Shown here: positions 38,801-64,000 of the stretch, piece after piece
Numbering within the stretch: position 1 is the stretch's first letter
How the letters are laid out: every line of letters begins with the position of its first letter
Assembly: GCA_030267565.1 (NCBI GenBank)
Contig: BRXU01000018.1
Location: forward strand, 806,001-870,000
Length of the DNA stretch: 64,000 bases
Direction: 5' to 3'
Origin: Pleodorina starrii
Taxonomy: Eukaryota > Chlorophyta > Chlorophyceae > Chlamydomonadales > Volvocaceae
The notes under the pieces: model-generated
Database searches by the model: none
What the model was told of the DNA's origin: nothing
Seen by the model: the letters and a program-made list of their open reading frames with translations, nothing else
Made by a program: the position numbers and the translations under genes

Positions 38801-38918
38801 ACGGCTGCGCCTCCAGCTCAGCGGGAAACAGCGGAACGCGATCAGCATCGCTTCCCCAACTCCAAGTCTGGGGCAAGAGGACGTCGTCATCAGCCCGCGC
38901 ACCGCCGCTGTTGCCCAT
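35900..38918 (-). CDS. Extended SDR reductase (DFR/CCR-like), tandem copy A, membrane-anchored
   Basis: NAD(P)-dependent oxidoreductase of the extended short-chain dehydrogenase family, closest in style to dihydroflavonol-4-reductase, cinnamoyl-CoA reductase and 3-beta-HSD-like proteins; the substrate cannot be told. Exons: 38918-38783, 38675-38600, 38352-38237, 38113-38067, 37420-37354, 37219-37009, 36788-36579, 36347-35900, with consistent phases, giving 436 aa. Features in order: Rossmann motif VTGATGYVAGP at residues 44-54, split by intron 1; GCDYVIHTASPF, the usual beta-4 region; VVMTSS with the catalytic-type serine; YSYSK with the Tyr and Lys of the YxxxK pair; NPGLVFGPP; HVDIRDVAAAHC. 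The last ~25 residues (WVTWVVVAMVLMALMAVL onwards) form one hydrophobic helix, a likely C-terminal tail anchor facing the catalytic domain to the cytosol. A near-identical copy lies 6 kb to the right. Confidence 0.9.
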
Positions 38919-41971: not shown

Positions 41972-44900
41972 TCAAATCGAGGGGGACCTCACGGCCGCGT
42001 TCAGGAGCACGCCCACATTCACCCGCGGGGTAGCGCCAGCCGACTGTGACGTCGACAGCTTCCGCGCACCGCGGCCGCCTCCCGCTGCCCCCCACACCGG
42101 CATGCAGCGATCGTCCGTCGCCAGCGGGTGCCGTAGCAGCCCCTTGTCCGCCAGTCCCTCCACCATGTCGTACAGCGAAGCCTCCAGGGGCACCCAGTTC
42201 CTCAGCCCCAGCTCCTCCGCCGCCTTGGTCGTGGAGAAGTTGGGCGGGGGTCCCCAGTTCGCCTCGATGAAGTCCCGCCCCACGCCCGCCAGCACTGGCG
42301 CCAGTCTCGCCGCGATCCAGCGGGGGGCCACCAGGGGCGAGGCGCGCATGCTGCCACCCGGGTAGAGCCGCTCCAGAACCTGGGTCAGCCGCAGCATGCG
42401 CACACCGCCGCCAACGACCAGGTACCTGAAAAAAGCAGGTGGAGGAGGGCGGCCGGGAGGCGATGAGGACGCAGACGTGAAGGGTTGGAACGAAGTAGAA
42501 GTAAACAAAAAACATTAGAACAATGATCCAGACCTGAGAAGCTTGAGGGTCGATTTTGAACAGATTTTAAAAGTTTTCCATGGGAAGGTCTGCGTGTAGG
42601 ACACTTCGCCGCTCCTAAAAATCGACGACTTATCACAGTAATCTCTACGGAAGCTGTTAACAACATATTCCAGGTCAGTCCATGCCATTTGCGTGTAGAC
42701 ACAGCTGTATCATTATTGTCGGGGATCTGAACCCTCTAACCAGATCTCATCATACTTCTAACTTCTTATACAGAATTTAATTCTCCTTTACAAAAAATAC
42801 AAAAGCTTGCGGGCGTATGGGCTGTGAACACGATGTGTCCAATTAAGAAGCAGTTTGCGGTTGTTATAGTGGATTCCGAACGGGTCGAGGGCTCCAGCAA
42901 AACATTGTGGGCCCCCATAACCAAGAAGCAGCCCTCAACCCAGACGCGCCGCTGACACCTTGCTCCGAAACCCAAAGCGCGGCAGTATCAGCGGCAGCGC
43001 CCTTCACCCTCCTCCATTCACCTTGTTCATCCTCCTTGGACCCCCTTCTCTTGAGCCCCCTCTCCCGCCAATACCCGCCGGCTTCCCCTCACCTTCCCGC
43101 TGCTCCCTCCGTCACCATCGCCAGGCAGTGCGCCGCCGCCACGTCCCGAATGTCCACGTGCGCAATCCCGATGTTTGGCGCCCAGGGATACATAAGGCCC
43201 CGGCAGATGCGCCGCAGCAGCGCCACACTCTCATTGGCGGCGCAGGTGGCGCCCACCGGGGGGCCGAACACCAGGCCGGGGTTGATGACGACCAGGCGCC
43301 ACCTAGGCAGGACAAGAGCAGGGCGGTGTCAGATGCGGTATGATGAAGGTAGGAAGCAAACGGGAGCAGGGGCACTGGGGCAGGGGGGAGGAGCGGGTGA
43401 GGAAGACGCTTTCCTGCCCCGGCCCCCTTCCCATTTGGTTCCGTTTCTGCCCCGGGTAGTTTGGAGCAGACTGCCCCGGGTCCCCCTCCTCAGGTCCTCA
43501 AGCGCACACCCACCCGCCCTCACCTGCTCTGCTGCCCCGCCAGCTCCCAGGCGTGCCTCTCCGCCTGCGTCTTGGAGTAGCTGTACGGCAGGAAGCTGGG
43601 GCTGGCGGTGGTGTTCCAGCACTGCTCGTCCATGGCTCGGTCGGGTCCCCCGTGGTCCCGGGGGGTGGAGTAGGTGGCGGCGATGGATGACGTCATCACC
43701 ACCCGCCGTACGGTCTCGGACTTGTTGACGGAGGCTGCGAGTGGCGAGGGGGGGGGGACCGCAACGGTCGAGGGGGCCGCAACGGGCCGTGCATGGACGC
43801 TAATTAAGAATGGCTCTGGAGTGGTGCAGACCCCCAAAACCACTCTAGCACAGGGAAAAGGCTGTTGTGCTGAAAACAAAGGCTGTTGTGCTGAAAACGA
43901 CTGCGTAAGTGTCAGCTGCAAGCTAGGACGAGCGTGCAATTCCTTATTGTGTTTGCGGCCCTGAGTACGACGCAATGAAGCTGTGGGAAGCTGGTTGCAT
44001 GAAGACAGTCCTGCTGAGTCATCTGCTGAGGGCCTCGCTGTCCTGCTCGTCCTGGGGTTCGTCCTGGATTCCCTGACCAACCGACCCACGGGTCTACCAC
44101 AATCTACCGACCCACCGACCCACGGGTCACTCTTGTTGCCGACGACCCCCCGACCCACCTATCACGTTCTCCACGCCCCTCACTGCGGGCTCCACCAGCT
44201 CCTCCGCCACCCTCTTGGGGTCCACCTGAACAAAGTGTGTGCGCGTGTTTTGGGGGATTAAAAAGAGGAGCTGGACGACATACAGGTGTGTGCAGCCTTG
44301 CGTTTCATTCAAAATAGAGCTGCTGCCGCTTGCCCAGTAACACATCCTTGGCATGGCCACTGAGCAGTGAGCACTTTGCACTTGGTTGGGTCGTCTGGCT
44401 CGCTCCGGGGTGTGCGCTTCGAAACCGGCCCTGGTGTTCACTCCCCAGCTAACGGCCACTCACCAGCAGTAGGAAGGGCGAGGCGGTGTGGATGACGTAA
44501 TCGCAGCCGGCTGCGGTTCAGGGAGAGACAGGGGCGGTCAGCAGGGCAGGAGGGCCGGGTGCGTGTGGGTTTCTGAAGGAGGACGGACAACACGATTGCC
44601 CTACTTGTGCACGTACGACACGTACCCACGGCCTCGTCGTAGCTTCCTGGTTTCATCAGGTCAGCCTGGAACAGTCGGAGGCGCTTGGGGGCTCCAGGGA
44701 GGGAGCGCAGGGCGGACACGGACTTGACAGAGGAGGGGTCCCTGGGGGGGGGGGAAAGGAGGGCGGGGCGGGGCGGGGCGGGGCGGGGTTAAGCAGTCGG
44801 TGGGTGCCGTATGCAACACGGGGCCCGTCAACACCTAACACATACACACAATCGCGCGCACACGCATATACGCGCACACACACAAGCACCAGGGCCTAGG

Positions 44901-45319
44901 GAGCAGGGAGCCGCTGCACACGTATGACAGGGCGGCCGTGGGCCCCACTAGCCTGACCAACACCCCTGCGCACACCCACACACACCCCACCTGCATGTTG
45001 CGTGCACTGTGTGTCCCGCCGCCAGCAACCTCGCCACGATGGGGCCCGCCACGTAACCAGTGGCACCTGCGGAGGGACAGACAGAGCGGGGACCATCCAG
45101 CAGTATGTAGAGCCAGGACGAAACAGGACAGGGCAGGAGACACGCACCGACCCACGGGTCAGCCCCGCACCCACCGGTCACACACACGCGACACGGCTGC
45201 GCCTCCAGCTCCGCGGGAAACAGCGGAACGCGATCACCATCCGAACCGCCACTCCAAGTCTGGGGCAAGATGACGTCGTCATCAGCCCGCGAGCCGACCG
45301 GTATCAGCCAGGAGGGCAT
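41972..45319 (-). CDS. Extended SDR reductase (DFR/CCR-like), tandem copy B, soluble C-terminus
   Basis: Duplicate of the reductase at 35900-38918, with the same eight-exon layout. Exons: 45319-45175, 45066-44991, 44741-44626, 44510-44464, 44225-44159, 43734-43524, 43302-43093, 42425-41972, giving 441 aa. Exons 2 to 7 have exactly the same lengths as in copy A. The Rossmann motif, YSYSK and downstream motifs are all kept, so the gene looks functional. Differences: a new N-terminus (MPSWLIPVGS versus MGNSGGA), and after GLLRHPLA the C-terminus reads TDDRCMPVWG onward for about 48 residues to a new stop, with no membrane anchor. Intron 6 is almost identical to that of copy A, whereas introns 5 and 7 are much longer. 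The protein may therefore be cytosolic; whether the new tail folds is unknown. Confidence 0.88.
42480..42945. other. AT-rich insertion in intron 7 of reductase copy B
   Basis: Copy A has a 231-base intron here and copy B a 667-base one. The flanks align (for example GCTCCGAAACCCAAAGCG in both), but the middle of copy B is an unrelated, clearly AT-richer block. It has no open frame of note and no clear terminal repeats. It is probably an inserted or captured fragment postdating the duplication, or lost from copy A. Confidence 0.6.
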
Positions 45320-47309
45320 CTCTCAACACCGACGGATTAGCAACTGGTGGCCAAGTCAGTAGGCAGCGTTCGAGCCAACGGATACCTAAAGTTGAAGGCA
45401 GGCGGAAGGTGTCAACAATCTATGAAAGCGGCTTAAACATGCGCCAATGACGCCGTGCCGGCTTGGAGAGAGGCAGCGCGTCCAGGCCGGAAGCGTCGTT
45501 AGGTTATTACCTACAAAGTTGCAATGCGCGCTGTGAAGGCTTACGTAGATTATGTATCGGTTTCCGAGCGCATGATTCGACCGCGACTGATTGCGGATCT
45601 CCTTTCGGGAGTGTTTGTCCAGCCCAAGCTGAAAGCGGCACACGTTTATTATCAGTCACAATCTAGGTGTCGTATGCTGCGAGATTAAGCGAAAGGTTCC
45701 GGATTTTGGAAGCGACAGGCTCGCCTCTTCGTCATGGCAAGGAAGTGGATGGCAACGGCCCCCGGCGGCCAAGGGCGGCTCGCCTGCTTGCTCGCGGCTG
45801 TCTCGTCGATCTCGCGCCAATCGAAAATGTGGCGAAAAACCTCAGCGATTGCACAAAACAGTAGGAAGAAGAGCAGGTTTTGTTTGTGAAGGCGCAGAAT
45901 GGTGGGTTAGGCGTGCGAAAATATATGCGTAACATTTGTTCGCATGTCAAACCAGGCCAAACGATTCGAACGGTCCAGCCAACGAACGAGCGAGCAAGCG
46001 CACGAGGTCCCATGTTACTAACCACCCGGACAATATAGACTGTTGCTTTAGGTTACGCATTGTGTAACCGACATCACTGCTGGCATTCATTTCCCAGCAT
46101 GGGATCCCTATCCAAGCAATGAGGCGATTTCGCCGGTGATTTGGTTAGTGGCCTGGTCTGTTCTATTGAACATTAAACCCACAGAATCGTGCGATCGCAC
46201 TATGTAGCTGTTATCCAGCTCCTCTGTAATTAAGTGGCATGGACAATTGCCGTGACAGCTAAGCTAAGATGTGACAAGCGATTAAAGGGCAAGGTCCCCG
46301 GTGGCGTCATGAAAGTGCAAAAGGCCAACTAACGCTGAAACATGAAATTTTATGGGTGAAGCTCCGTCGCTGTTATGAGTGAGCAACACTCATATACGAA
46401 GAGAAGTCGTAGCAGTTGTTACGGCCCACAGAGGGTCGGATCCCGGTCGCGAAGCGGCTTCGGGATCCGCCCCCTGGCGTTGTGTCTGCGTCGGCGTCGT
46501 CGACGTTGGGTCCGAATCGCCGAAACTTTCAAACCCTCGGTCCCATAATAAGTTTGAAGCAGTAATATGAAGATTGGTTTTTTATTTAATCTTTGCGCCT
46601 GGCTGTTTCGGGGCAAACGCTGCTTCGACCGCCAGTCATCGCTGTCCTGTCCATTTTTTAGTGCAATTCGGCAGCTCTTCGTCCAGTCGCTCTCGGCACC
46701 CATCCAATATCTTTCTAACATTCAGTATTATGTATAAAATCTATTGGCCTCGTATAGGCCGGCATTGGCGAGCATACTTGCGGGCCAACCTGCCCGGCCC
46801 TGTCCAGAGGTCTCCGCGTATCGCGTCGGCCGTTTGCGTAACCGTCACAGCTCGCCATCTGGTCTTTAAGGCGTGTTGCATTCCCTCGCTTTCATTTGTT
46901 GATACTCCTTCGTGCTGCTTTTGCATTGTCCGCTTTCGTCTTTGCAAATGCCCGCTTCCCGGTTTCGGCCTTCTCCTTCCCGCTGTTCGCGCTCCCGTGC
47001 TTTGCCTCGCACAAATGGATTCCATTAATTATGCCATTCTTACATGTGTTTATACGCAACGTTTGCGTCCTCCGGGCGCTTGGTTCTCCTTCTTGCGCAT
47101 TCCGCATGCGTCACCGCCTTTCCTATTGTGGTCCGTTCTGAAAAACCATGGGCGATTACAATTGAAAAGCGTGTCGCCTTCAACATGCGCCTCGCAGGCA
47201 CACAGCGCAGTGCGCCCTGCACTGGCGTCCTCATGGCGCTTTCCATTATAGGACCCCGTTTCGCCTCGCCGCCCCTCGGTTGCGACTGGTTGCGACTCCA
47301 ATACTTCCG
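45320..47309. other. Intergenic, no gene seen
   Basis: Two kilobases between reductase copy B and the repeat upstream of the pherophorin. Composition is moderate. A perfect 9-bp inverted repeat, CGGATCCCG/CGGGATCCG (46437-46445 and 46461-46469), could form a hairpin. The longest open frame (about 225 codons, plus strand, 46574-47251) begins at TTG and shows nothing recognisable. Confidence 0.45.
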
Positions 47310-47558
47310 CCCTTGCGCTTCTCAGTATTTGACCCGGCTTCAGGCGTGCAACGGCGTCGCTGACAATGCGACTGTACTGCCCCGTTACCGCCAACTTGTG
47401 TACTGCGGGATAACATATTGAGATCACAACTCCTCTGGTGCTTAACCCTTCATTCACATTGTCTCAGGACAGGACCAATTCCGGGTATGAGCGTGTTGGG
47501 TCACACGACTCAGCATCTGGGTACCAAGTAGTTTGACGCTCGCCTGACATAAGTTCGG
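47310..47558. repeat. 250-bp direct repeat, copy 1, just upstream of the pherophorin
   Basis: About 249 bases that recur at 52937-53188 in the same orientation, with few differences, from CCCTTGCGCTTCTCAG to CATAAGTTCGG. This copy ends 62 bases before the pherophorin ATG, so it probably includes that gene's promoter or leader. The second copy sits next to a retroelement scrap, so the unit may be a terminal repeat of an element or a duplicated promoter. Confidence 0.85.
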
Positions 47559-47620
47559 CATAGCAAACATCAGGCAGCAGAGCAAAAATACTCAGTTGCT
47601 TGGCGACGCGGCGTACAAAA

Positions 47621-50600
47621 ATGTTTGCCAAGGGCGGCAACCCGCCCGCCACTGTATTGCTGATGATGCTGACAACCCTGGCGCTCCTGGAATCATTTTC
47701 TCTGGCCGCACCCTGCCAGTACCGTCTCTACGACTCGAGTGGAGTACGTGTGTCGGAGCTTGTCTTGGATGGGTCGAACGAGTACACTGGCAGTGTCCGC
47801 GCCGCCATGTCAAAGCTTCTGGTGGACGTGCCTAACGCCGATGGCACCTTCACAAATACAGAACCATCCTGGTATTGGCAAGCAGGAACCGCCGGATATA
47901 CGGCCGCTTTGCGATTTCTTACCGAGGATGAGTTTGCCCTCAACTATCCTGGAAATACATGCCCTTCCCCTTACGAGGTTGTGTATACGGCCAGTTCCTT
48001 CACAGTGGGCAGCAATCAAGTCTCCGTCAGCGCGATGTCTAACTGGATCAGTACGATGCCGACCATCGACTGCTCCTCGGTGACACGGCTAGTCCTCATG
48101 GGCTACACATATGACGTGAGTGCCTTTGCGCCCTTTTGGGCAATTGGTCAGATTGGTTGCTCTCCTAAGAGGGGCTTTGTCAGGTTCGGGGTCGACTGCT
48201 GCCCTTATCAACCGCCACCCAGCCCACCCAGCCCTCCACCACCCCTGCCACCATCACCACAGCCACCCTCCCCATTGCCACCCAGCCCACCCAGCCCTCC
48301 ACCACCCCTGCCACCATCACCACAGCCACCCTCCCCAGTGCCACCCAGCCCGCCATCTCCCCTCCCACCTTCACCGCCACCACCTAGCCCACCGACGCCA
48401 CCTTCACCGCTACCACCTAGTCCACCGACGCCACCTTCACCGCCACCACCTAGTCCACCGACGCCACCGTCCCCACCTCCACCTAGCCCACCGACGCCAC
48501 CTTCACCGCCACCACCCAGGCCACCATTACCTCCACCTCCACCCCCACCCCCACCACCATCTCTTACGACCATCCCATTATCCCCTCTGCCTAAGCTATC
48601 TTCCAGTCCCTCGCCCTCTCCCCCCTTTGTCACAGCACTTCCACCTTCTCCTCAACCCCCACTACCGCAACCTTCATCCCCACTTCATCCTTCCCCATTT
48701 CCTCCTACGCCTCCCCCACCACAGCCTCCACCGGTTCTTCCAGTGCCTCCACCTCCTTCCCCTTCTCCACCTTCACCAAACCCACCTTTCCCATTGCCGT
48801 CACCATCGCCGCCGCCACGTCCTCCATCTCCATCCCCACCTTCACCACCATCCCCTCCATCCCCAACCCCACCGCCACCGCCACGCCCTCCATCCCCATC
48901 TCATCCGCCGCCGCCGCGCCCTCCGTCCCCATCCCCACCGCCACCACCACGCCCATCGTCCCCATCTCCACCACCGCCACCGCATCCTTCGCCCCCCCCA
49001 CCTTCCTCACCCCCCACACCACCACCCCCAAGACCCTTCCGTCCACCACCCAAGTCCCCCCGGGTACCCAGCAATGATGCGCTGGTCACGAGCTTCCCCT
49101 TCTCCTCCTGTGACACGCGAGATGTCGCTCTGACCCCGTACCGTATGTCCTCACCGGTCGGCCCCTTCAACTCGACTTCCTCCAAAGCCACGTACTGCTT
49201 TCGGATCGCTGCTGTGGAGGCGGCAGACAGTGCCAGCCCGTGTTCATCCATCAAAGTAAACAAGATAGAGCTTATCGTCAGTAAGTGATGACATGAGCGG
49301 GTCGTCCATATAAGGAGCTGCCGGCTGAGGAATATTCGCAGGGTGATACCCATAATCCCTACCAACGGATTGGCCCAGGATTGGCCTGTTAGTCTTAAGT
49401 CAATGTCAGGCAAAATGGCTGCTCTGCAAAATGTTAGTTGACGTAAAAGTGACTTATTAGACTTAAAACTAAGCCAAAGGGTGCTTAGTAACTAACCCGC
49501 GGAGGTGCAGACATACGCACGCACGTAATGTGAAGTCATGTATTATCCCTAAATGTTTGAGGTACCTCGGCGTGTTGCCCTTGTTACCTTAACTTTTGCC
49601 CGTCCGATTATTCATTATTAATAAAAACAGTTCTCGTCATGAATAAATGGTTAGATAGACATAAATTTGAGTTGCGGTGCGGAAAAGCAAGAAGCGCCAC
49701 ACCCGTTTACAAACCCTGGGCATGCACCCCGCCAACTGTCGTCCCCCGTTGGGAAGGTGCAAGGGGATAAGAAAACCGCCGCTAAAGCACTCGTGCCGGC
49801 CGATGCGCGGCTAACCGCGACGCCGTTAGCTACTCTATCTCCGTGCCGGCCAGCTGCCACCAGCGGCACCCTGCCCAGCTGCCATCTAACCACAAAAAAC
49901 AAAGCGGCCGCAACGCAACCGGACGGCAACGAATACACCTACCAACCGACACGTGCGCCACCCCTGATTCCCTCGAGCGAAATAAAATGGGGCCCAGGCT
50001 AGCGATGGGGGAGGCAAAAGGGAACCAGAGTCAAGGCAAAACCTCCCCCGTCTTGGGACCGGCCTAAACCCGAAGGCACACGAACCCAAGGACAGACACA
50101 CACGGCACATACACGCAGAAACACGCGAGCGCGTGTATGGGAGACGACCCCTTCCTTCATTGAGGTCTAAACCTTATTCGTTGCGTGCGGCATGGGCAGG
50201 TGGTCGCCGACCAGCCATTTGCAGTTTGGTGCAACGTTTGGATCGATGTGTGCCCGCTTCACTTGCAGCAGGCGCATACACAGATGCAACGACTTGGGGC
50301 AGGTCTGACTGCACGGCCGCTGTGGCGGTATGGCACCGAGCCCATAACATGCACCAAACACTGCCACGTGTGCAGTCCCGCACTCGAGCTAGCTAGCTAG
50401 ACGCCTACACACCAAAGGATCACCATTATATATCACTGTCCCTGCAATAATCCCCAGCAACCGTAAGTAATGATTATCACTTTACAGACTAATGCCACAT
50501 GGGCATGCATGGGTCATGCATGGGTCCCAGCCAGCCTATTTCAGCACGCAGGCCCCCTTGGCCAACCAACGTCTCGGGCCTCTTCTCCCACTCCCTAGGG

Positions 50601-52201: not shown

Positions 52202-52936
52202 TGCCACCGTGCTCAGAGTATTGCAGCCGTGCTCACGTGCTAAGTGTTGGTTCAATACATGGGCAGGCAAAGGGACGGTGGTTCGGGCTTTTCAGCAGAA
52301 CGGGTGTTTTGCAACGATCCGTTCAATGGCCATGTCGCCGACAGGCATGGGGATCCTCTACAGCCGGGGTCTTACCGTCAGGTTCAGGATATCTGGTCTT
52401 TCGACGCGGTAGATAGATAGTGTCGTCACCATGGGTGGCAGCGCGCGGTCGATCCACCGGTAGCCTTGCCGCCGTTGGCTGCCGTGTTCGCGCCCATAGC
52501 TAGTCGCCATGCATGCGGCGGCACACTACGCCATCGACGCGCACGATGTATGCACGCCGCCGTTACGTATCTGCGGGGCCTGTCGGAATTAGGCAGGTTC
52601 GTTGGCGCTGATTCTGGGCTTGCCGAAGGGGGTTCGGAGCCGCCGGTGTGTGTGGTTTGTTGTTTTGGCGAGCCGGGGGCTTAGGGATCAGCTGCTTCGG
52701 GCCAAGGGCCAGGCTCACAGCCCGTGGGTGATGGTGTAGTGTTGTCCTATCTAGGGGTTGCGAGCTGGTCAGCTAGGGTAGGTGAAGGGCAGAGTTTTTT
52801 GGGCAGGGCCCCAGCGCGAAGCGCCCAGGGGGGCCCCGCCCTGCTGTGGGATTGCCCATCGCTGTAGCGCCCTAGCTTTGCTACAGAAGCGGAGGCCTTA
52901 CCCCGACTGCAATGCCCGTCGCCGTAGCGCCTCTAG
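52202..52936. other. Intergenic, no gene seen
   Basis: About 0.7 kb with short open frames only. A GC-rich inverted repeat around CAGGGCCCC and GGGGCCCCGCCCTG occurs at about 52804-52843. Nothing else was recognised. Confidence 0.45.
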
Positions 52937-53188
52937 CCCTTGCGCTTCTCAGTATTTTACCCGGCATCAGGCGTGCAACGGCGCCGGTGACAATGCGACT
53001 GTACTGCCCCGTTACCGCCCACTTGTGTACTGCGAGATAACATATTGAGATCGCAACTCCTCTGGTGCTTAACCCTTCATTCATCACATTGTCTCAGGAC
53101 AGGACCAATTCCGGGTATGAGCGTGTTGGGTCACACGACTCAGCATCTGGGTACCAAGTAGTTTGACGCTCGCCTGACATAAGTTCGG
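52937..53188. repeat. 250-bp direct repeat, copy 2
   Basis: Same sequence and orientation as 47310-47558, about 5.6 kb away. It is followed by unrelated sequence and then by a reverse-transcriptase scrap rather than by a pherophorin start. The two copies differ by scattered substitutions and a 3-base insertion. Confidence 0.85.
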
Positions 53189-53460
53189 TAATAGCACAAG
53201 TAAGGGCCTCCGGCAGTCCCGCTTTTGGTGTAAGCAGGCCGTGTGTAGCGGACCAGCGTACATTCCGCCGTAGAGTTGTGGAACGCGTGGGTTGATAGAA
53301 AGACGAAGGACAGTCAGTGTGCTGCTGCCAGCGGTACGCAGCAGTAACAGGTCGGCTTGGAAAATTGGATTGCAGGTTCCGTCTCGCACGGGGTCGCAAA
53401 ATCGGGCCGCCGCGGCAGCCGCCGCCTCGGGCGCGTCAGGCCCGAGGCAGAGCGATGTAG

Positions 53461-53823
53461 GCTGCGTGGAAGGCGATTGGATCGGATGCACGCACGCTGC
53501 ACGTGTTCAAGCATGGCGTTCCCGTCGAGTTCTTCGGGGGTCGCTCACCGCCAGCGTTTGAGCCTCCCAGTTTTCCTGTCGATGCTGCGCAGCGTCGTTG
53601 GTGGTTGCTGGTTGGAGACGGAATAACCGCGTCTGGTTGCGTTGGGCGCCATGTATGCCCCGGGTGGACCCCGCCCGGTCTATCTGTTGCTCACGTGGTG
53701 AAAGCGTTCTGTGTGCCCAAGCTGGGCAGCGTGTCCTGGCGGTTGGTAGTTAACCTGAAGCGCATGCATGAATATCGCTCTCATTGGCCCTCTGCCCCTT
53801 GGACTTCAGACCGTGGGAGATAA
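53461..53823 (+). pseudogene. Fragment of a DIRS/Gypsy-like reverse transcriptase
   Basis: This frame is open from the stop at 53458-53460 and has no ATG start. It reads WKAIGSDARTLHVFKHGVP, then FEPPSFP, then CVPKLGSVSWRLVVNLKRM. This is the typical lead-in of DIRS and Ty3/Gypsy reverse transcriptases: a tryptophan region, then PK.GS..WR.VVNL. The catalytic motifs that should follow are missing, because the similarity ends where the LINE coding frame begins. It is therefore an old element cut by the LINE insertion or deleted earlier. Confidence 0.6.
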
Positions 53824-56800
53824 AGCAGAGCTACGACCGGTCTGCCTTGAAAAATGGCTAAATGAACAGGGAGACGCCCTACGCCGGGTCAATGGACGAA
53901 CCAAACTGACGCCCGCTGGAAGCTGGACGAACGTATTGTGCTGTAATGAAACGCATCTCAGCAGACTAACAGCTACGACCACAGAGCCAATCCAACCAGC
54001 ACACTCCCAAGTAATGGAAGAGCGCAATCATGGCCCGAGACGCTGGCCTCCGAAGCCTGCGCGCAACGAGACGGACAACATTAAGTGCAAATGGAATAGT
54101 CCGCACCCATTGCAGCCCCGAAAACCCATCCGACAGAAGCCCGCACTAGCGAAACATACGCAACGTGCTGGCACACTTAGTCGTGCTACCAAAACAGCAT
54201 CCTTTGAATCTACAAATAATGAAGCCCTACAAAACAACAGTGCCCCACTGAGAAGAGCTGCAACACTCGGTGAACGACCTGAATGGGACTGGAACGCGGA
54301 CGGATCGCCCTCGCCACGAACCTACCGGCTATGTGGAAGCTCCTGGAATGTTATACAGCACGAAGAATGCAGCAGCTGCCAATGGAGGAAGCCGAACCTA
54401 ATAGTCCGCCCGCCATGGGCCTCTGGGTCCCGCAAGCCACCATGGTCACCGGATAAAGCACAGCCTAATATGTGTGAGCCTCGACAAGATTCGATAATGC
54501 CAATGCAATGGCAAAACCCCCGCAATGCGAGGAAACTCCGGGAAAAGCAGTACATCAGTGAGCGGACGCCAGCAACTACCCACAGCAGACTATGCGAAAC
54601 CTCTGTCTCAATATGCGACGCATTTTCCACAAAGCAACGGCAAGCAAGAATGCTAAAACCTGCCTGGGAGCACCTGTACGGAACCCAGCCCGGACAGGCT
54701 TATAAACCGGCCGAGAACACAACACACCCTCTCCCATCGCCGCACCACGAGGCACTCAGCACCATGGCTCACTTTGTGCCCCCGCACCTGGTCGGTCGCT
54801 GCACCATCGGTGATGAATACGGCGTCGTGGCGGTTCAGTCGCGCGCTCTCCCACAAAACCGACTTGAAGGGCTGAAGAGGCACGGCACCCTCTCAACAGG
54901 GGCTGCGAACGCCATTGAGTCGAGCGCCTTGAGGACCAACCGAGGCACATGCGCCGCGAGCGACGCACAGCCCTACGGCAGCCGCGAACCCACCCCACAC
55001 AGCGTGAGAGGCCGGGAGCGACGGAACCTGAACGCCGTAGTCAGGACCAGCCTCTGGCTGCTGCGCCAGACGGGCATGACCCTGCTCCACTGGCTTCAGT
55101 TTGCAATGATGGCATACATACAGTTTCATATCCTGCTGTATCGTTACATGGTACTGGCGCCCCTGGCCGTCGCCCTTGCCCTTTACTGTGCACGCACCGC
55201 CGCTCTGATCACCAAACACCTCGCACACAGACTTTTGGCGGCGACACGACTAACCATGCAAGCCAACAGAACGCGACGAATACATGCCGAATGGACTCGA
55301 GTCGCCCATACAATACTACTCATGCCCCTCGCATTCACCCCAACCGCCCTAACCCTCGCCCTACAACCCCTGAACGACGTCGTCCACTATCTGATCTCTG
55401 CATTCCTCCTGATCTGGGCGGGACGCCTGATCCTCGTAACACTCGCCCTACCCCGAGGTGCCGCCCTGCTCCGCACCGTACGACATGCCATACACACCTT
55501 ACACGTCGGCGCCCGCCAAATATGGAACGCACCCGGACGCCTTGCACATCAGCTGGCATTCCTCACCATGCTCACCCTGATCTGCTGGCAACTGATCACA
55601 GGGGACATCATTGCACTATACCTCGCAGCCGGCATCCTCCTCATCTCAAGAATTATGCAGGCCACACCACCATTAGCACGCCTCGTGCACGGTCATGTTT
55701 GTGCCTGTGCTCTCGCCGGTCTGCTCACACACGTCCCAAACACGAGCCAAGGCACGGTTGCGCCCCTCGCAACGGCGCTCGCTCTGCTAGTCTTGGACAT
55801 CCCGGAAGCGACCCGCCGCAACCGACAACAACATGAGCCCCAATACGGAGGGCCCGACGAGATCACGACCCGACACGCTGCAACACCTGCCCACACGACC
55901 GGCACAAACAACGCGCCGCGACGCCCCGAGGACATCCCCTGGCCGCCACCGGGACACCCGCCCGAACAGGAAACCCCCACCTACCACGAAAGGCAACGAG
56001 CGCAGATGTGCATGATTCACGCCATTAACAACCTGCTCGGGGGCCCGTACATCGACCCACCCCACGTACTAAGCTACTGCCGTACCATGACAACACACAT
56101 GCAGCAGCAAGGCCTCCATGCAGCGGCCGCCATCTGGAAGCACGCGCACAACCCCATCACGGGCCACTTCTCCACCATAGTGCTGAACCACTACCTGCGC
56201 CACAACGTACGGATCCGCGACGCCAGCGGCAACACACTCCACGGCACACACATCGCATCAGTGAGCACCGAGCTCCCGATCCGCAAAGGGGACCCGCTCG
56301 ACACCCTCTGGGCACAACTCCCCCCCCACGCCCAAAGCTGGGGTTTCATAGTGCATCTCGAAGGCCATGCCGTCGCGGTCCGAAGGCAACACACGCATTG
56401 GTTCATCATCGACTCGCAATCGCCGCGCCCTTCACGGCTGACAACCAATTGGCCCCTCGCTCACGGCACTATCTACTGCCTCCAGCACCGGCGCAACAGC
56501 GCCCCATGTCAAACACATGTCGACCTCCGGAATGTCACGCCACCTGAGCAATGGACCGCAACCCTGACGACCAACACACAGAACGGACCCGCCGCCACCA
56601 CCACGGACACGACGGAACAGCACCAGACTGGCCACGACGACACACGCACACCACCGGAACCCACCCCCACCGAAGCGCTCCCCTCGCCCTCCCACGAGGG
56701 GAGAGCGACTGCAGAGCACGAGGCACCCCGGTACACCGCCGCCAGCCCAAACCCCACCCCGATGGAGGTAGATGACGCGGGCTCCCCCGAAATCGAAGCA

Positions 56801-58717
56801 CACATGCAACCGACGGAACCCGGAAGCCCCGAGGGCCCCCCGGCACATACCCCTGCCGACCCCAGCCCCATGGACACTGACGACGCAGAACTGGATGCGG
56901 AAATCCCGCAGCCTCCGCCGGATGCCAGCGACGCCGCGGGCGCCCCGCGGCCCGCGCAGCAAGACGTCCCTAGGCCCCGTAGAGCAACCGCGAATGCTCC
57001 TGAAGCGCGCCACGCCGACACGGGACGGGCCACCAGGCGCGCCCCCACTCCAGAGGCCGCGGCACCTGCACGCACCAGCAGAAAGCGGACCAGAAGGCAA
57101 GTAGGGCCCGCGCCCGCAACCCACACCATCACATATCACCTGCTCCGCATGCAAGGACTCCCCATCCGACAGGGCCATAACCGCACGGCCGCCGACGCAC
57201 CGGACGGAGCCGAGACAACCGAGACACCGCAACACAACCCACCGAACCCGGCCCCCGACCCGGTACGGCTGGCGGCGCACGGCACGACGCGCCCCACTCC
57301 GGAACGGGATGCAGCACGTCCACGCCCACGCAAGCGCCCAGCGGAAAGCTCCCCCCCTCCGCAGTCCCGCCCTAAACCAAAAACAGGACCTCAGCAACAA
57401 CACATGACGAAATACGCCCACCCCAAAAAGCCAAAGACGGACACCCCCGCCGCACCTGCCAAGGCGCCAGCGCAGACCGCCAGCGAGCCACCCCCGGCCG
57501 CACCCGGAGCACCACCGACCGGCTATCTCAAACTCGTTACGATGAACACGCGAGGCCTGCAAGGGCACCGCGAGGGTATTTTGCGCCTAGTCGACGACCA
57601 CAAGCCAGATGTGCTGGTGCTCACCGAAACCAAGCTAAGCGCTCATCATCGGCGCGCTATTGCAAGCATGAAGCAAAGCATGCAGCCCTATCAGACCTAC
57701 CTGAGCAACCGCCCGCATGTCGCCGACCGCGCCAATCGGGAAGCAGGCGTCCTGATCGGAGTGGCGGAGCGCTTCAGTAGACAGGGCAGCGCCACCGCAG
57801 AACCTATACCCACTGAACTGGAAGGGTACATAGGGCATGTGCGTATAGCCCCCCCAGCCAGCTCCGCCCTCCACATCATAGGGGTGTACTGCCCATCCGA
57901 CTCCACCGCACGGCAGAGAATATACGAATATGGTCGAGCGGCCTCGGCGCACGCCAAAGCGAAGGGTGAACACCTGGTCATGGCGGGCGACTGGAACGCC
58001 GTGCTCAAAGCGAGTGACCGGTCGACAGGCATCTGCAACTCGGACGACAGGGCACACAGATGCTTCTCAACGGACAGCGACCTACGACCAGTAGACACCA
58101 GGCGACGAGAATACACCTACACGCAGACGCAACTCGGACTCGACACCCACCTGAGCCGCATCGACGACGTCCTCCTTGCTCCCCAAACCACCGCCGCTGT
58201 GGCCAAGGAGGGCAATGCATACGAACAAGTGTACGATTGTGGAGGCAACTTCGACCACCGACCGCTGTGTACCCTCCTCCCCCTAGCGGGACTCCGCCTC
58301 CTCCCTGCCCCCGCTGCCCAGCCCCCCACAGACCTGAACCCCAGCTCATGGAGCCGCATCCAGCTGCCCATCCTCAAAGAAAGCAAAGGCAAAGCACGCA
58401 TGGAAATGGAGGCGACACTCACGGGCGCAATTACCCACCTGTTGGACGCTCTCCGCCCCGCGCACGAGACCATAACAGCCGCCTCCACCCAAATGGAGCG
58501 CGCCGCGGGCAAGGACCAGGCGCGGACGATCCTTGGCCACCTGCGCAATCACGAGGCCGTGCAAGCCACGAATGTCACTTCCCTAAGCCAAGAGCTTGGG
58601 ACGCTCATGCTGCAATGCCTCGGCATCCTCGAAAGTCACTGCCAACAAAACCCCCCCCCGCTCAGGGAGACTGCACGCGCGACGGGGCATTGGCAGGCGC
58701 CTGACCCGTTTACATGA
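53768..58717 (+). CDS. LINE polyprotein, first frame: membrane segments, Josephin-like protease, APE
   Basis: 1649 codons from ATG 53768 to TGA 58715-58717. Residues 1-425 are basic and unrecognised. Residues ~426-680 hold about six to eight hydrophobic stretches (FHILLYRYMVLAPLAVALAL; YLISAFLLIWAGRLILVTLA; LAFLTMLTLICWQLI; ALYLAAGILLI). Residues ~738-905 are Josephin-like: YHERQRAQMCMIHAINNLLG with Cys748, then GHFSTIVLNHYL, EGHAVAV with His867 and WFIID with Asp882, in the order of the ataxin-3 catalytic triad. A disordered acidic and basic region follows. Residues ~1255-1505 are an APE-type endonuclease with MNTRG (Asn1260), TETK (Glu1287), GDWNA (Asp1408/Asn1410), RIDD (Asp1466) and DHRPL (His1497), all catalytic positions kept. 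Coherent sequence leaves this frame at the C run at 58651-58659, about 20 codons before the stop. Confidence 0.85.
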   Translation: MNIALIGPLPLGLQTVGDKAELRPVCLEKWLNEQGDALRRVNGRTKLTPAGSWTNVLCCNETHLSRLTATTTEPIQPAHSQVMEERNHGPRRWPPKPARNETDNIKCKWNSPHPLQPRKPIRQKPALAKHTQRAGTLSRATKTASFESTNNEALQNNSAPLRRAATLGERPEWDWNADGSPSPRTYRLCGSSWNVIQHEECSSCQWRKPNLIVRPPWASGSRKPPWSPDKAQPNMCEPRQDSIMPMQWQNPRNARKLREKQYISERTPATTHSRLCETSVSICDAFSTKQRQARMLKPAWEHLYGTQPGQAYKPAENTTHPLPSPHHEALSTMAHFVPPHLVGRCTIGDEYGVVAVQSRALPQNRLEGLKRHGTLSTGAANAIESSALRTNRGTCAASDAQPYGSREPTPHSVRGRERRNLNAVVRTSLWLLRQTGMTLLHWLQFAMMAYIQFHILLYRYMVLAPLAVALALYCARTAALITKHLAHRLLAATRLTMQANRTRRIHAEWTRVAHTILLMPLAFTPTALTLALQPLNDVVHYLISAFLLIWAGRLILVTLALPRGAALLRTVRHAIHTLHVGARQIWNAPGRLAHQLAFLTMLTLICWQLITGDIIALYLAAGILLISRIMQATPPLARLVHGHVCACALAGLLTHVPNTSQGTVAPLATALALLVLDIPEATRRNRQQHEPQYGGPDEITTRHAATPAHTTGTNNAPRRPEDIPWPPPGHPPEQETPTYHERQRAQMCMIHAINNLLGGPYIDPPHVLSYCRTMTTHMQQQGLHAAAAIWKHAHNPITGHFSTIVLNHYLRHNVRIRDASGNTLHGTHIASVSTELPIRKGDPLDTLWAQLPPHAQSWGFIVHLEGHAVAVRRQHTHWFIIDSQSPRPSRLTTNWPLAHGTIYCLQHRRNSAPCQTHVDLRNVTPPEQWTATLTTNTQNGPAATTTDTTEQHQTGHDDTRTPPEPTPTEALPSPSHEGRATAEHEAPRYTAASPNPTPMEVDDAGSPEIEAHMQPTEPGSPEGPPAHTPADPSPMDTDDAELDAEIPQPPPDASDAAGAPRPAQQDVPRPRRATANAPEARHADTGRATRRAPTPEAAAPARTSRKRTRRQVGPAPATHTITYHLLRMQGLPIRQGHNRTAADAPDGAETTETPQHNPPNPAPDPVRLAAHGTTRPTPERDAARPRPRKRPAESSPPPQSRPKPKTGPQQQHMTKYAHPKKPKTDTPAAPAKAPAQTASEPPPAAPGAPPTGYLKLVTMNTRGLQGHREGILRLVDDHKPDVLVLTETKLSAHHRRAIASMKQSMQPYQTYLSNRPHVADRANREAGVLIGVAERFSRQGSATAEPIPTELEGYIGHVRIAPPASSALHIIGVYCPSDSTARQRIYEYGRAASAHAKAKGEHLVMAGDWNAVLKASDRSTGICNSDDRAHRCFSTDSDLRPVDTRRREYTYTQTQLGLDTHLSRIDDVLLAPQTTAAVAKEGNAYEQVYDCGGNFDHRPLCTLLPLAGLRLLPAPAAQPPTDLNPSSWSRIQLPILKESKGKARMEMEATLTGAITHLLDALRPAHETITAASTQMERAAGKDQARTILGHLRNHEAVQATNVTSLSQELGTLMLQCLGILESHCQQNPPPLRETARATGHWQAPDPFT

Positions 58718-61700
58718 TGAACACAAAGCACTGAAACGCGACCTCACGCAAGCACTGCACCCGCCGGGGGCCCCCCCCAACCCGACGAAAGCGACCCAAC
58801 AACCCCCATCACGGCACCCCCAGGAGGCAACGCCGGTCCCGAAAGCCACAGATCAGACCCCCGACCCACCTGAAACTGGTACCACCCGCCAAACACAAGG
58901 CCAGGGGGACCCATGGGACAACCTTGAAACCCGCGACCTGCGCACCGCGATCCGGAGCAAGGGGGACGAAATCAGGAAGGTGGTTAATGAGACGCGCAAA
59001 CTGCACATGCGCAGAGCAAGCAGGCGGCTCCAACGCCTTCTCACAAAGAAGCCAAAGCAGGCGCACAGGCAAATCCTGGAGCCTGACGATCAACCGCGAG
59101 GTATCGCGGCTATACGCCACCCCGAGGACGGGCACCTGTGCACGGACTCAGAAGGCATTCTCGACGCGCTACACACACACTTCGCCCTCCTAGCCAAGCC
59201 AGTCTCCGGTCCCCGCACAGGCAAATACCTCCCAGGCGAGGCCCCACGCAATTACCCCTGGGAAGTGGCTGGGGCCCCTGACCCACTCAGACAAGGCCTT
59301 GCACGCTGGGACGGTGCGCCCCCGTCCCTCCTCCCCGGAATCCTCGACCCATGCAACTTTCGCACCTGCCTAGGCCACCTCGCCCGCAACAAAGCCCCCG
59401 GGCCGGACGGCCTGCCCAATGAACTCCTCCAAACCCTTCCAGACGACCTCCAGACCGCAATACACCACCTGATCACCATAATGTGGGTCAAAGCCGAAAT
59501 CCCCCCCCACTGGACACAATCCGACACAGTCCTCATCCCCAAGAAAGGAGACCCACTTCTTATTAAGAACAAACGCCCGATCGCCCTGGCCAACACCCTC
59601 TACAAGCTGTACACCAGCCACATCACGCTAAACATCGTAACTTACAGCGAGCAAGCACACATCTTTACCGAGGCCCAGGAAGGGTACCTCCGGCAGCGCA
59701 ACACAGAACGGCAAATCCAGAACGTGCTGCACGCTATCGAAGACGCGGGCCTTACCGGGCGCGACCTGTTCCTCCTTTATATCGATTTCACATCCGCGTT
59801 CAACACCATCGATCATGATAAACTGCTTATGATCATGTACGACCTGGGCTACCCAGATGACCTCATCGAGGTGGTTTCGAACCTGTACTCGCACGCCGCG
59901 ACACGCATACGAACCGAGCACGGATGCACTGCGAACATTGCGATCGAGCGCGGAACGATCCAGGGAGACACGCTGTCACCCGTCCTGTTCATTATCTACA
60001 TGGAACCCCTCCTACGATGGCTGCACAGCGGCGGCAGGGGGTACCGATATGGCTGCCTCCGGGCGGAAGAAAACGATCGCCATCACTTCAGCTCGGGTGC
60101 ATTCGCTGACGACCTAGTTATCCTTACGAACGCGGTATCGGATCTGCGGCTCCAATGCTCAAAAATTGAACGGTATGCGAGGTGGGGGGCCCTCAAGGTC
60201 AACGTGAGCAAGTGCCAGATACAAGGCATACTCCATGGTCGCGCGCGCTCGGACAAGGATCTGAGTAGAGGCCCCGGCACACAAAAATACCAGACCGCCC
60301 TGGAACGCCTTCTGAAAAACCAAATTCGAATAGACGACACGCCTATCCCGTACGCACCCCCCACGCAGCCGTACAAGTATCTGGGAGTACACATTACCCC
60401 CACGCTAGACTGGGCAGAAGAAGTGGCCTATGTGCGAGCCGAGGTTGACAGACGAGGACGGGGCATTCAGAGCTCCCTCGCGACCCCCGACCAACGCATC
60501 AACATGATCAGAACCCTCATACACCCCTTCGTGGCGTACAGCCTGCCCACCATGGCGTACACCCCACAAGACATTGCCAGTTTCGATGCGCAAATCGCGG
60601 GCATAGCCAAACGCAGCTACGGACTCAAGATGGGCTTCCCCACCCGCGCCATTCTCAACCCGACCGCGAGGCTCGGCCTGGGGGTTGGCACCGTACGCAC
60701 CTTATACGCCGTCCGGGCGGCAAAGACCCTCGTCCTCTCCCTCAATGATGACGGCCGTCTCGGAGCGGTGACCAGAGCTCTCCTCCACCTGCAAAGTCGA
60801 TACATGGGCACCGTACCGGCACATGAACTCAAACGGGAATGCAAATTCTACACCACACTGAAACAGCTCGCTCTCGTGAGGGAGGCGGGGATTGAACTCA
60901 CGGACAAAGGGACAGCATACGAAACGACAATGAGCAGCCTCGCCCACCTGATCGGATCTCTCAACCCAGCGGCCGAACCCAAGGCGCTTGCGCTCCTCTT
61001 CCGATGCGTACAACCTCTGCTTGAGCTGGGTCTCGACCTCCGGGCCCTGAGGGATCAGAACACGGGCACGCACATCATCACCACCGATCAGCTGCAACTA
61101 ATCGGAGGCCGGAACGTGGGATCGCGCCATAGGATAGCCCTGAACCAGCTCAGCCTCGCCATGAATGCCGACCCCAGCGTGCGGGCTCGGGCACCCAGAT
61201 ACCGCGGATCCACATCTCTACCCCCCGAGCTGCGGCTCATTCCAGACAACCCCGGCCTGACCGGCCTAACCGACGAAACGGCTGGACCCAAACCCATACC
61301 GTACGGACGCATAACAAAGTACCTCGCCCCAAAGCCCCGTGACCCGGTCGAAGCCATGCAAACCGCACACGCCGACACAGCCCCCACACCCCCAGGCGTG
61401 ACAATCGCCGACGAGGCGACCCAACCGACGCCGCCCGGGGGCGCGACGGCAGATCCCACCACACGACGCTCGACGCCTAGATGTCACGCCCGGCAACACC
61501 AGCCACGGCGGCTAACCGACCGTGACCGCCTCAAAGCATACCTTTTGCGTCAAAACCTCAAGCCGGTAACGGGCATCGTGGACACCGACGCCATCGGCTG
61601 GAACCCCCGACACACCCCACTCACCATCCAACATTGCGAAGAGCTCCTACGCCACCCGCACCACAAGGGCCTGCTAACCAGGGTCGGCTCCGCCAAACGG

Positions 61701-64000
61701 CTCCTCCAGATGCTGCTGGGCGAGGAACCATGGCCTGCGGAGGTCCCGGCGCGGTATGGAATCAGTATCACGCAATTCCTCTTCGGAGACCAGGAAAGGG
61801 TGGCGTGCATCAACGCAGAAATACGTAAACGGGTCGCCGTCGACAAACCGACCCCAAAGAAGCAGCGCACAATCCACCCACCGAACCAAGGCACCCACCG
61901 CACCTACTACCTGGTCGACTGGGAACGCACGGCAGTATCCAAAGGAGCCCTCGCCCTCTACGCTGCCAACGGATACCACCCCCAGGCGGTACACCCCCAT
62001 GCGCCTCCCAACGGCACACCACCGCAGGTGGGCCTAGTCGAAGTAGACTGGGCGCCCACTCAAGACGAGGGCACGCGTCTGGCCCAACAAGATAACTGGA
62101 TCGAACTGCTCAATGCATTCCGGGATCGACGCGCTCAGGAAGCCGGACATGACCCGGGGCGCGCGGCGGAGACACGCGACAAGCACCTGACGGAAAGGCA
62201 ACAACAAGGTCGATGGGAAACCGAATGCCTAAACACGACCCGAGGGCAGCGCCTTCTCAGACAGTTTGTCGAAATCAACGTCCAACCGGGAAACCCGGAC
62301 AAGGACATCTACCCCACAGGGCGTTACACTATCCAGATCGGCAAACACAACGGCCCCCTCTGCGGAACACCCTGGGAGGGTGACGGGGACATACCTGAAG
62401 GACTGCAGACCATCGGACTGGCCCTCGTCTACGGCCCCCAAGGTAACTGTGTAGGCCAAATCGCCGTCTGTCGTCTCCGCAGCCTGTGGTACAGGTACCA
62501 AGACGCGCAGCAGAACCGCCCGGAAGACCATGCCCGACTCGCCGCCAGGGGCGGCTTTGCGGAAGACGTCGCACGCCTCCTCCTGCGGTACCGGAACGGC
62601 GGGGGCACCAAACTGCAACCCGTCAAAGCGGCAAACGAGCGCCGGCTGCCCGAAGCACTTATGAAGCGCCTCACGACCGCGCTCGGCGCCACAACCGAAC
62701 GCTTTGCATCCCCCCTCAATGTAGCCGACTGCGTAGATACATACTATTCACGCTTTTCAGAGGACCAGCTCTTTGGGGCGAACCACGATGCATATACGCA
62801 GCCATTCACAGGCCTCTCCATCGCCCACCCCGAGCCTACGCCGGAGGAGGGGCATCACGCCCTAAGATGGGCCTTGGGATGGGCCGAGACAGTACGGTCT
62901 GAGAGCACACCCACCGCCACCCTCCTCCTGCTGCCCACGGCTCGAACGGCGCCATATACCCGTTACCTCACCCACCCGCTGGTCACTATGATCGGCAGAA
63001 TCGACGCGTTCACGGGCACAGCCAGTCTGTACAGCGAAACCCTTGAAGATACCCCCCAACCCTACCCGATGGGCCTCACTCTTCTCTTAGTCAGCAACGC
63101 AACTGGTCGAACCCACGCCGAACGCCTCCGTCGGACTCTTGGCATGCCGGCTGCAACCGCCACCCCCATGGAGCCCTCCCACCCCTGGAACCCGCCCCAG
63201 TGGGTGCGGAAACGGGTGCGCAGTATGAGCGACCGGCCACCCGCCGCGGCGGTACTCTCCCGTCCGTGCGACAACCTCACCTCTGCTGAGCGAAAGGCCG
63301 TCTTCCGGACATTCCACGCCAAACAGTCGCTGCGATACGACTCCCAGAACGCAATCTACACGGACGGATCTGTTCAAAAGGTAAAGGATGGCGACGAGGA
63401 CCGACAAATACTGGGAGCCGCGGCCGTCGACGCACTCACCAATAAGACGCTCCACATTGATGTAAATGCTGGACATCACGGCTGCCAAACCATCACGAGA
63501 TGTGAACTAAGTGCCATCCACCAAGCACTCTACATGCGCAGAGGCACGCCTGAGGACAACACCCACTTATCCATCTGGACGGACTCAGCCGCAGCCCTTT
63601 ACCTAATAAAAAAGATGATCAATAACCCACAGAAACTCCGGCTCAGCAAACATAAGGCCCTGCTTGAGCAGATAGTCACTACTCTTAAAAAGAGAGCAGC
63701 ATGCAATTTAACAACTTCCCTACTTAAAGTAAAAGCCCACAATGGCGTGAAATATAACGAAGAAGCAGATAAAGCAGCCGTACGGGCCGCGCGAGGCCTT
63801 GCAAAGCTCGACCCCGACGCACTGAGCACAACCGAAACATCTGACAATAACCCACGTAACCAATACTGGTGGCTACGGAAGATGCATGGGCCTGAGAAGA
63901 ATGCTGGGCACTTTGCCAACGACCTCAACCGGGGCATCGAAGCCCTAGTGCGTCCGGAAACGCACTCGGGCTACACAAATGAGACAGATTACATGAAGTT
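58651..64000 (+). CDS. LINE polyprotein, second frame: RT, PCIF1-like domain, RNase H (open at window end)
   Basis: Open without a stop from the C run to base 64000, about 1783 codons; codon starts are divisible by 3. It begins with a charged helix (RRLTRLHDEHKALKRDL) and has no ATG of its own nearby, so it needs the upstream frame. RT: NKAPGPDGLPNELLQ, VLIPKKGD, YIDFTSAFNTIDH with the motif A Asp, GTIQGDTLSPVLF, and FADDLVIL at 60102-60125, all intact. At 62697-62720 ERFASPLN starts a segment like PCIF1/CAPAM cap methyltransferases; the position of their NPPF motif reads HPEP at 62826-62837. RNase H: YTDGS (Asp codon 63363), Glu 63504, Asp 63582 (WTDSAAAL) and Asp 63768 (KAHNGVKYNEEAD), the full set of four acidic residues. 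About 1.5 kb between RT and the PCIF1-like part is unrecognised. Confidence 0.85.

Follow-up and report, generated by a model that had tools for sequence, protein, structure and literature searches.

The right end of the window, a stretch of 64,000 nucleotides from the green alga Pleodorina starrii (contig BRXU01000018.1, positions 806,001 to 870,000; C18:806001-870000), raises the question whether one long interspersed nuclear element (LINE) can combine an unusually large set of enzymatic domains, or whether several elements are nested there. The first-pass annotation had proposed a single LINE with membrane segments, a deubiquitinase-like protease, an APE-type endonuclease, a reverse transcriptase (RT), a cap-methyltransferase-like domain and RNase H. 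Judged from sequence, the locus is a LINE of the Dualen/RandI type that carries a conserved pseudo-methyltransferase derived from PCIF1 and, as a recurring trait, a membrane-type N-terminus. The copy in the window, which is 5'-truncated and frameshifted, very probably inserted recently and belongs to an active green-algal non-long-terminal-repeat (non-LTR) retrotransposon of this type. The class is assigned by published descriptions; the domain order, the single-element status, selection, an (ATT)n tail, a target-site duplication (TSD) and the 5' truncation are evident from the nucleotide and protein comparisons.

Domain layout of the element

Two overlapping open reading frames (ORFs), out of frame with each other, cover the element. 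Pfam matches above the family cut-off were obtained for Josephin and Exo_endo_phos in ORF A and for RVT_1, PCIF1_WW and RNase H in ORF B. Together with the membrane segments detected by hydropathy, these account for all domains named beforehand. The features are as follows (aa, amino acids; RLE, restriction-like endonuclease).

53779..64000, + strand: LINE copy, continuing past the window, element end at about 64,986
53768..58717, + strand: ORF A, 1649 aa, its first codons being target DNA and not element
58596..63998, + strand: in-window part of ORF B, open at the edge, stop at 64,865
53773..53778, no strand: 5' copy of the TSD, TATCGC, with up to 9 bp common to the 3' side
55130..55648, + strand: three membrane-type hydrophobic segments (55130-55186, 55391-55447, 55592-55648) by hydropathy, upstream of Josephin
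55994..56443, + strand: Josephin-type cysteine protease/deubiquitinase domain (PF02099, E 4.4e-10)
57539..58207, + strand: APE-type endonuclease, Exo_endo_phos (PF03372, E 3.3e-10)
58651..58659, + strand: C run where the frame slips, by comparison with 8 other family-1 copies
59535..60395, + strand: reverse transcriptase, RVT_1 (PF00078, E 8.5e-27)
61899..62291, + strand: chromo-like region, without the PHD finger that some relatives carry here
62292..63155, + strand: PCIF1/CAPAM-like methyltransferase-fold domain, PCIF1_WW (E 1.3e-7, 31.8 bits, cut-off 31.1)
62826..62837, + strand: position of the PCIF1 catalytic NPPF motif, which reads HPEP
63345..63791, + strand: RNase H (PF00075, E 5.9e-13)
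64,056-64,865, + strand: CCHC finger and R2-type RLE, past the window edge

Extension to the right, as the first-pass annotation had proposed, closed the frame that it had described as open at the edge and revealed the CCHC finger and the RLE at most 865 bp beyond it. The RLE fold is supported, although one supporting match for the CCHC/RLE part is weak (E 0.14). The catalytic residues of nuclease, RT and RNase H, said to be intact, are so in the RT, APE and RNase H motifs; the methyltransferase motif is altered. Frame-intact copies encode a single polyprotein, in the order hydrophobic leader with membrane-type segments, Josephin, APE, RT, chromo-like region, PCIF1-like domain, RNase H, CCHC and RLE. 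Among aligned members, the chromo-like region gave a PHD match in 5 of 12 and a Chromo match in 2 of 12; because the latter were weak (best E 0.33), we named the region chromo-like only. The 120 relatives listed include products of up to 4,675 aa, and to rank this one among the largest of LINEs was an overstatement. Neither an Rfam nor a tRNA scan had any match in the window.

Genome copies and the frame slip

The genome surveyed comprises 136 Mb, and copies are designated here by contig. Counts from the RT and 3' queries are lower bounds. Of 2,519 RT candidates 66 were scored, 40 of them matching at 91% or more (window copy included) and 26 at 80-85%. In 14 of the 40 the frame stays open for 3,764 aa or more between stops. 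The 701-bp 3' query gave 40 scored matches from 230 candidates, at 98-100% and again including the window copy. In the five fetched copies the ORF from the first Met measured 3,730 aa (C47), 3,731 aa (C17) and 3,774 aa (C13, C3 and C32). The recent activity claimed for this locus is therefore borne out for the lineage, with at least 40 RT matches at this level and 14 long frames, but the window copy itself is truncated and frameshifted.

The single slip proposed earlier is real and lies at the C run, where ORF A changes to ORF B. The window copy matched copy C17 continuously over 11,235 bp at 99.84% identity, and the only gap falls in the run near 58651-58659. Copies C45, C37 and C8 also match the query from residue 1 and have stops inside, so a shared or programmed frameshift was considered. 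This was ruled out, since the 8 other family-1 copies compared, these three among them, do not vary in the length of the A/C run. The run differs only in the window copy; thus the slip is private to it.

Family 1 falls into subfamily A (C17, C47, C6 and C22), which begins MLCLLMLTVFLLGAEA, and subfamily B (C13, C3 and C32), which begins MQMLGLLVLTVFILGAYG, with valine for phenylalanine in C32. Copy C17 was 97.4% identical to C13, C3 and C32 downstream, and unlike them over the ~400-460 codons at the 5' end, of which only the hydrophobic leader is similar. The 5' part thus seems to have been exchanged at least once. A family-2 copy on C13 has a 4,472-aa open frame, which starts with a head-to-tail repeat of ~63 codons (MDPSIWRAREKG...) and runs into the LINE frame.

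Ends and insertion site

Copies C17, C47, C45 and C8 share ~219 bp of extra 5' sequence, comprising a short 5' leader and the first Met. The window copy is therefore 5'-truncated and has lost its start codon, and the ATG at 53768, taken before as the start, is target DNA; the element begins at 53,779. The 3' end carries an (ATT)n run of 390 bp, to about 65,376. When TSDs were sought in six copies, the flanks matched at both ends over 13 bp for C17 and over 9 bp for the window copy. The remaining four, which lack a duplication at both ends, count against the proposed reading of the element: the matches of 12-13 bp in C47 and C32 were set back from the 5' end, C13 matched over 6 bp only, and C3 gave no match. 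No resemblance was seen among the six insertion sites. For the window copy an empty site was recovered, the joined flanks aligning without the LINE, at 84-90%, to 4/4 paralogous host-repeat copies that were fetched. The (ATT)n tail, the TSD and the 5' truncation, as read here, are what is expected of target-primed reverse transcription.

The LINE lies within a decayed repeat, seen at 53300-53778 and again in the flank beyond the element, whose RT-like reading is WRLVVNLKRMHEYRSEG in one frame and VKVDLADRMP*FYNIPIRP in another; 57 matching stretches were found in the genome. Pfam gave nothing on the 106-aa ORF before the LINE.

Selection on the domains

Nonsynonymous to synonymous substitution ratios (dN/dS) were calculated against the family-2 copy on C5, with dS of ~1 or more and hence near saturation. 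The values were 0.14 for Josephin, 0.13 for APE, 0.04 for RT, 0.19 after RT, 0.14 for the chromo-like region, 0.18 for PCIF1, 0.03 for RNase H and 0.16 for CCHC plus RLE; the linker before APE gave 0.43. The N-terminus was not alignable, and only 29 codons of the membrane region aligned. The family-2 copy on C13 agreed with C5 for APE through RNase H. Weighing against so broad a constraint, it failed to align in Josephin (25% identity) and in CCHC plus RLE (26%), and selection there therefore rests on one pair. By these ratios the enzymatic domains are under purifying selection relative to the second family.

The PCIF1-like domain

This domain matches the PCIF1 methyltransferase in sequence and fold; against the match stands the structure model of the region, with a mean predicted local distance difference test score (pLDDT) of 69.5. 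PCIF1/CAPAM is a cap-specific adenosine N6-methyltransferase that binds m7G-capped RNA and whose WW domain binds the phosphorylated tail of Pol II. In contrast, the domain of the element sits between RT and RNase H and has lost NPPF, and no WW domain was found in the PCIF1 region at E up to 10 or in the ORFs at E up to 1. With HPEP in place of NPPF, both the Asn and the aromatic residue are lost.

We consider it unlikely that the domain still methylates cap (or other) adenosines and, by means of a changed catalytic loop, marks the RNA of the element. Such activity would fit the purifying selection on the domain and the motifs of relatives: of the 107 in which both motifs were readable by hmmalign, FASPLN was exact in 37, and the tetrad read NPEY in 27 and [DNSH]PP[FYW] in 4. 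The tetrads of weakly aligned relatives may, however, be misread, and NPPF was therefore also sought directly in the domain. It occurred there in 0/116 matching relatives; four relatives carry the letters elsewhere. Furthermore, nearly all of 150 scored PF12237 matches in the genome end by profile position 98, which is estimated to precede the catalytic motif. Disruption of NPPF lowered PCIF1 activity, according to PMC6318281. The preferred reading thus remains a conserved pseudo-methyltransferase.

The membrane-type N-terminus and the protease

Several comparisons suggest that the hydrophobic N-terminus is a membrane domain. The leader is similar in subfamilies A and B, in contrast to the rest of the N-terminus, and the frame is open across the stretch in seven copies. 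Relative P0022 has five membrane-type segments at the same place, and its BLASTP alignment (31% overall) runs through. In 35 relatives a Josephin-like match is preceded by over 100 aa. At least one such segment occurs in 25 of them; in the 35 together, 53 segments were observed against 14.4 expected from shuffles, and in 6 a segment starts within the first 15 residues.

Alternatively, translation may start further down, or the hydrophobic runs may be incidental. This is favored by a dN/dS of 0.76 for the membrane region between subfamilies A and B, which indicates weak constraint, and by the 10 of 35 relatives without any segment. The part N-terminal to the membrane region is only 31% identical between the subfamilies, and among four inspected family-2 copies C10 and C2 have no segment (C5 and C26 one each). 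Given the shared leader, the open frames, the P0022 alignment and the excess over shuffles, we nevertheless regard a fortuitous stretch as improbable and retain a recurring membrane-type N-terminus.

A Josephin-like match was present in 41 of 131 relatives. The domain of the element has a CMIHAINNL and a GHA.AVR stretch in common with P0022, which we take to hold the Josephin active-site Cys and His. Two tandem Josephin-like matches, some of them weak, were seen in 12 of the 131 (e.g. P0014, P0071, P0088, P0092 and P0111). Since other relatives carry OTU (P0034) or a Ulp1-type Peptidase_C48 (P0028 and P0050), the protease type seems exchangeable.

Relatives and classification

Domain combinations of the same kind occur in single relatives. 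P0006 has Josephin-APE-RT-PHD-PCIF1-RNase H in one ORF (Josephin and PCIF1 below the Pfam cut-off), P0010 Josephin-APE-RT-RNase H, P0022 Josephin-APE-RT and P0003 APE-RT-PCIF1. Among the 120 listed, those with an organism in the name came from Haematococcus lacustris and Parachlorella kessleri, and EukProt transcriptome-type names suggest transcription of P0011 and P0096. The viral contigs and the prokaryote genome collection contained no relatives.

The element resembles Dualen/RandI of Chlamydomonas in having APE plus RLE, RNase H, a green-algal host, an (ATT)n tail and a cysteine protease, which Kojima and Fujiwara reportedly described in Dualen in 2005. APE and RLE are given for Dualen/RandI in PMC4640811 and PMC3636483, RNase H in the former, and (ATT)n tails for green-algal RandI in PMC3747384. 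Dualen is also known from Chlamydomonas and its relatives (PMC8226300) and from cryptophytes (PMC12747079). In contrast to our element, a PCIF1-type domain, membrane segments and chromo/PHD are unmentioned in the available Dualen/RandI descriptions, which need not be complete. LINEs with PCIF1, Josephin or membrane segments were not reported in the literature matches listed, with most subscription journals outside their coverage, nor in passages of PMC6431247, PMC2861651 and PMC8868631. Ulp1-protease LINEs, NeSL and Utopia of nematodes, likewise place an N-terminal ubiquitin-like-protease-type cysteine protease before RT and RLE (PMC4640811), but the protease of the element has a Josephin fold.

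A divergent R2-group LINE that gained its APE independently of Dualen is very unlikely. Among solved RTs, the only ones compared, the nearest relatives were R2 proteins, ahead of L1, and the nearest solved RLE was also from R2 proteins. This cannot favor an R2-group origin, because no solved Dualen protein turned up. R2 is specific for ribosomal DNA and is not known to have an APE, RNase H, a protease or a PCIF1-like domain; the element has all of these, and the insertion sites of its compared copies differ from each other. APE, RLE, RNase H and an (ATT)n tail in a green alga fit Dualen/RandI in the publications cited above.

Finally, a nest or fusion of at least two elements, in which another element or a host gene supplied the membrane part, the protease or the methyltransferase, would explain the diverged 5' codons of the subfamilies but have next to no probability left after the multi-copy comparison, given the continuous C17 match, the domain combinations in relatives, the purifying selection on the enzymatic domains and the one empty site, whose joined flanks rule out nesting.

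Other features of the window

A direct repeat of ~250 bp (47309-47558 and 52936-53188; 95-100% identical, 5.6 kb apart) ends with its right copy ~590 bp short of the LINE start. Another direct duplication, a diverged one (36041-38904 and 42119-45296), has copies ~6.1-6.8 kb apart that are 77-99% identical in pieces. A repetitive ORF at 47600-49288 has a terminal pherophorin domain (DUF3707, E 5.9e-8), which marks the host as probably a chlamydomonadalean alga. Simple repeats rich in G and in C at 18500-19500 and 26100-26700 form long arms that are 72-77% complementary.

Implications

In retrotransposition, one endonuclease would nick the target, the second strand may be cut by the other one, and RNase H would clear the RNA. 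The PCIF1-like domain may have lost methylation chemistry and still grip capped RNA, helping to choose the full-length transcript of the element. The N-terminal part could serve the polyprotein as a membrane tether, with the protease either releasing the nuclear enzymes or stripping ubiquitin from them. Together this would describe membrane-based LINEs, a tentative and rather doubtful picture: leader and segments would hold the polyprotein, a swappable protease (Josephin, OTU or Ulp1-like) would free the nuclear enzymes, non-catalytic PCIF1 would act as a cap reader so that only capped full-length RNA is copied, and chromo/PHD would steer insertion.

The domain combination hints at ways in which such elements might deal with their own RNA. 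It touches the questions by what means the protein of a LINE selects the full-length RNA that encodes it, and for what reason two endonucleases persist in a few LINEs. If the polyprotein does have a membrane leader, this would be a surprising lifestyle for a LINE. A selected PCIF1-fold domain without the catalytic motif, in near-identical full-length copies in one alga, would allow cap reading during retrotransposition to be tested directly.

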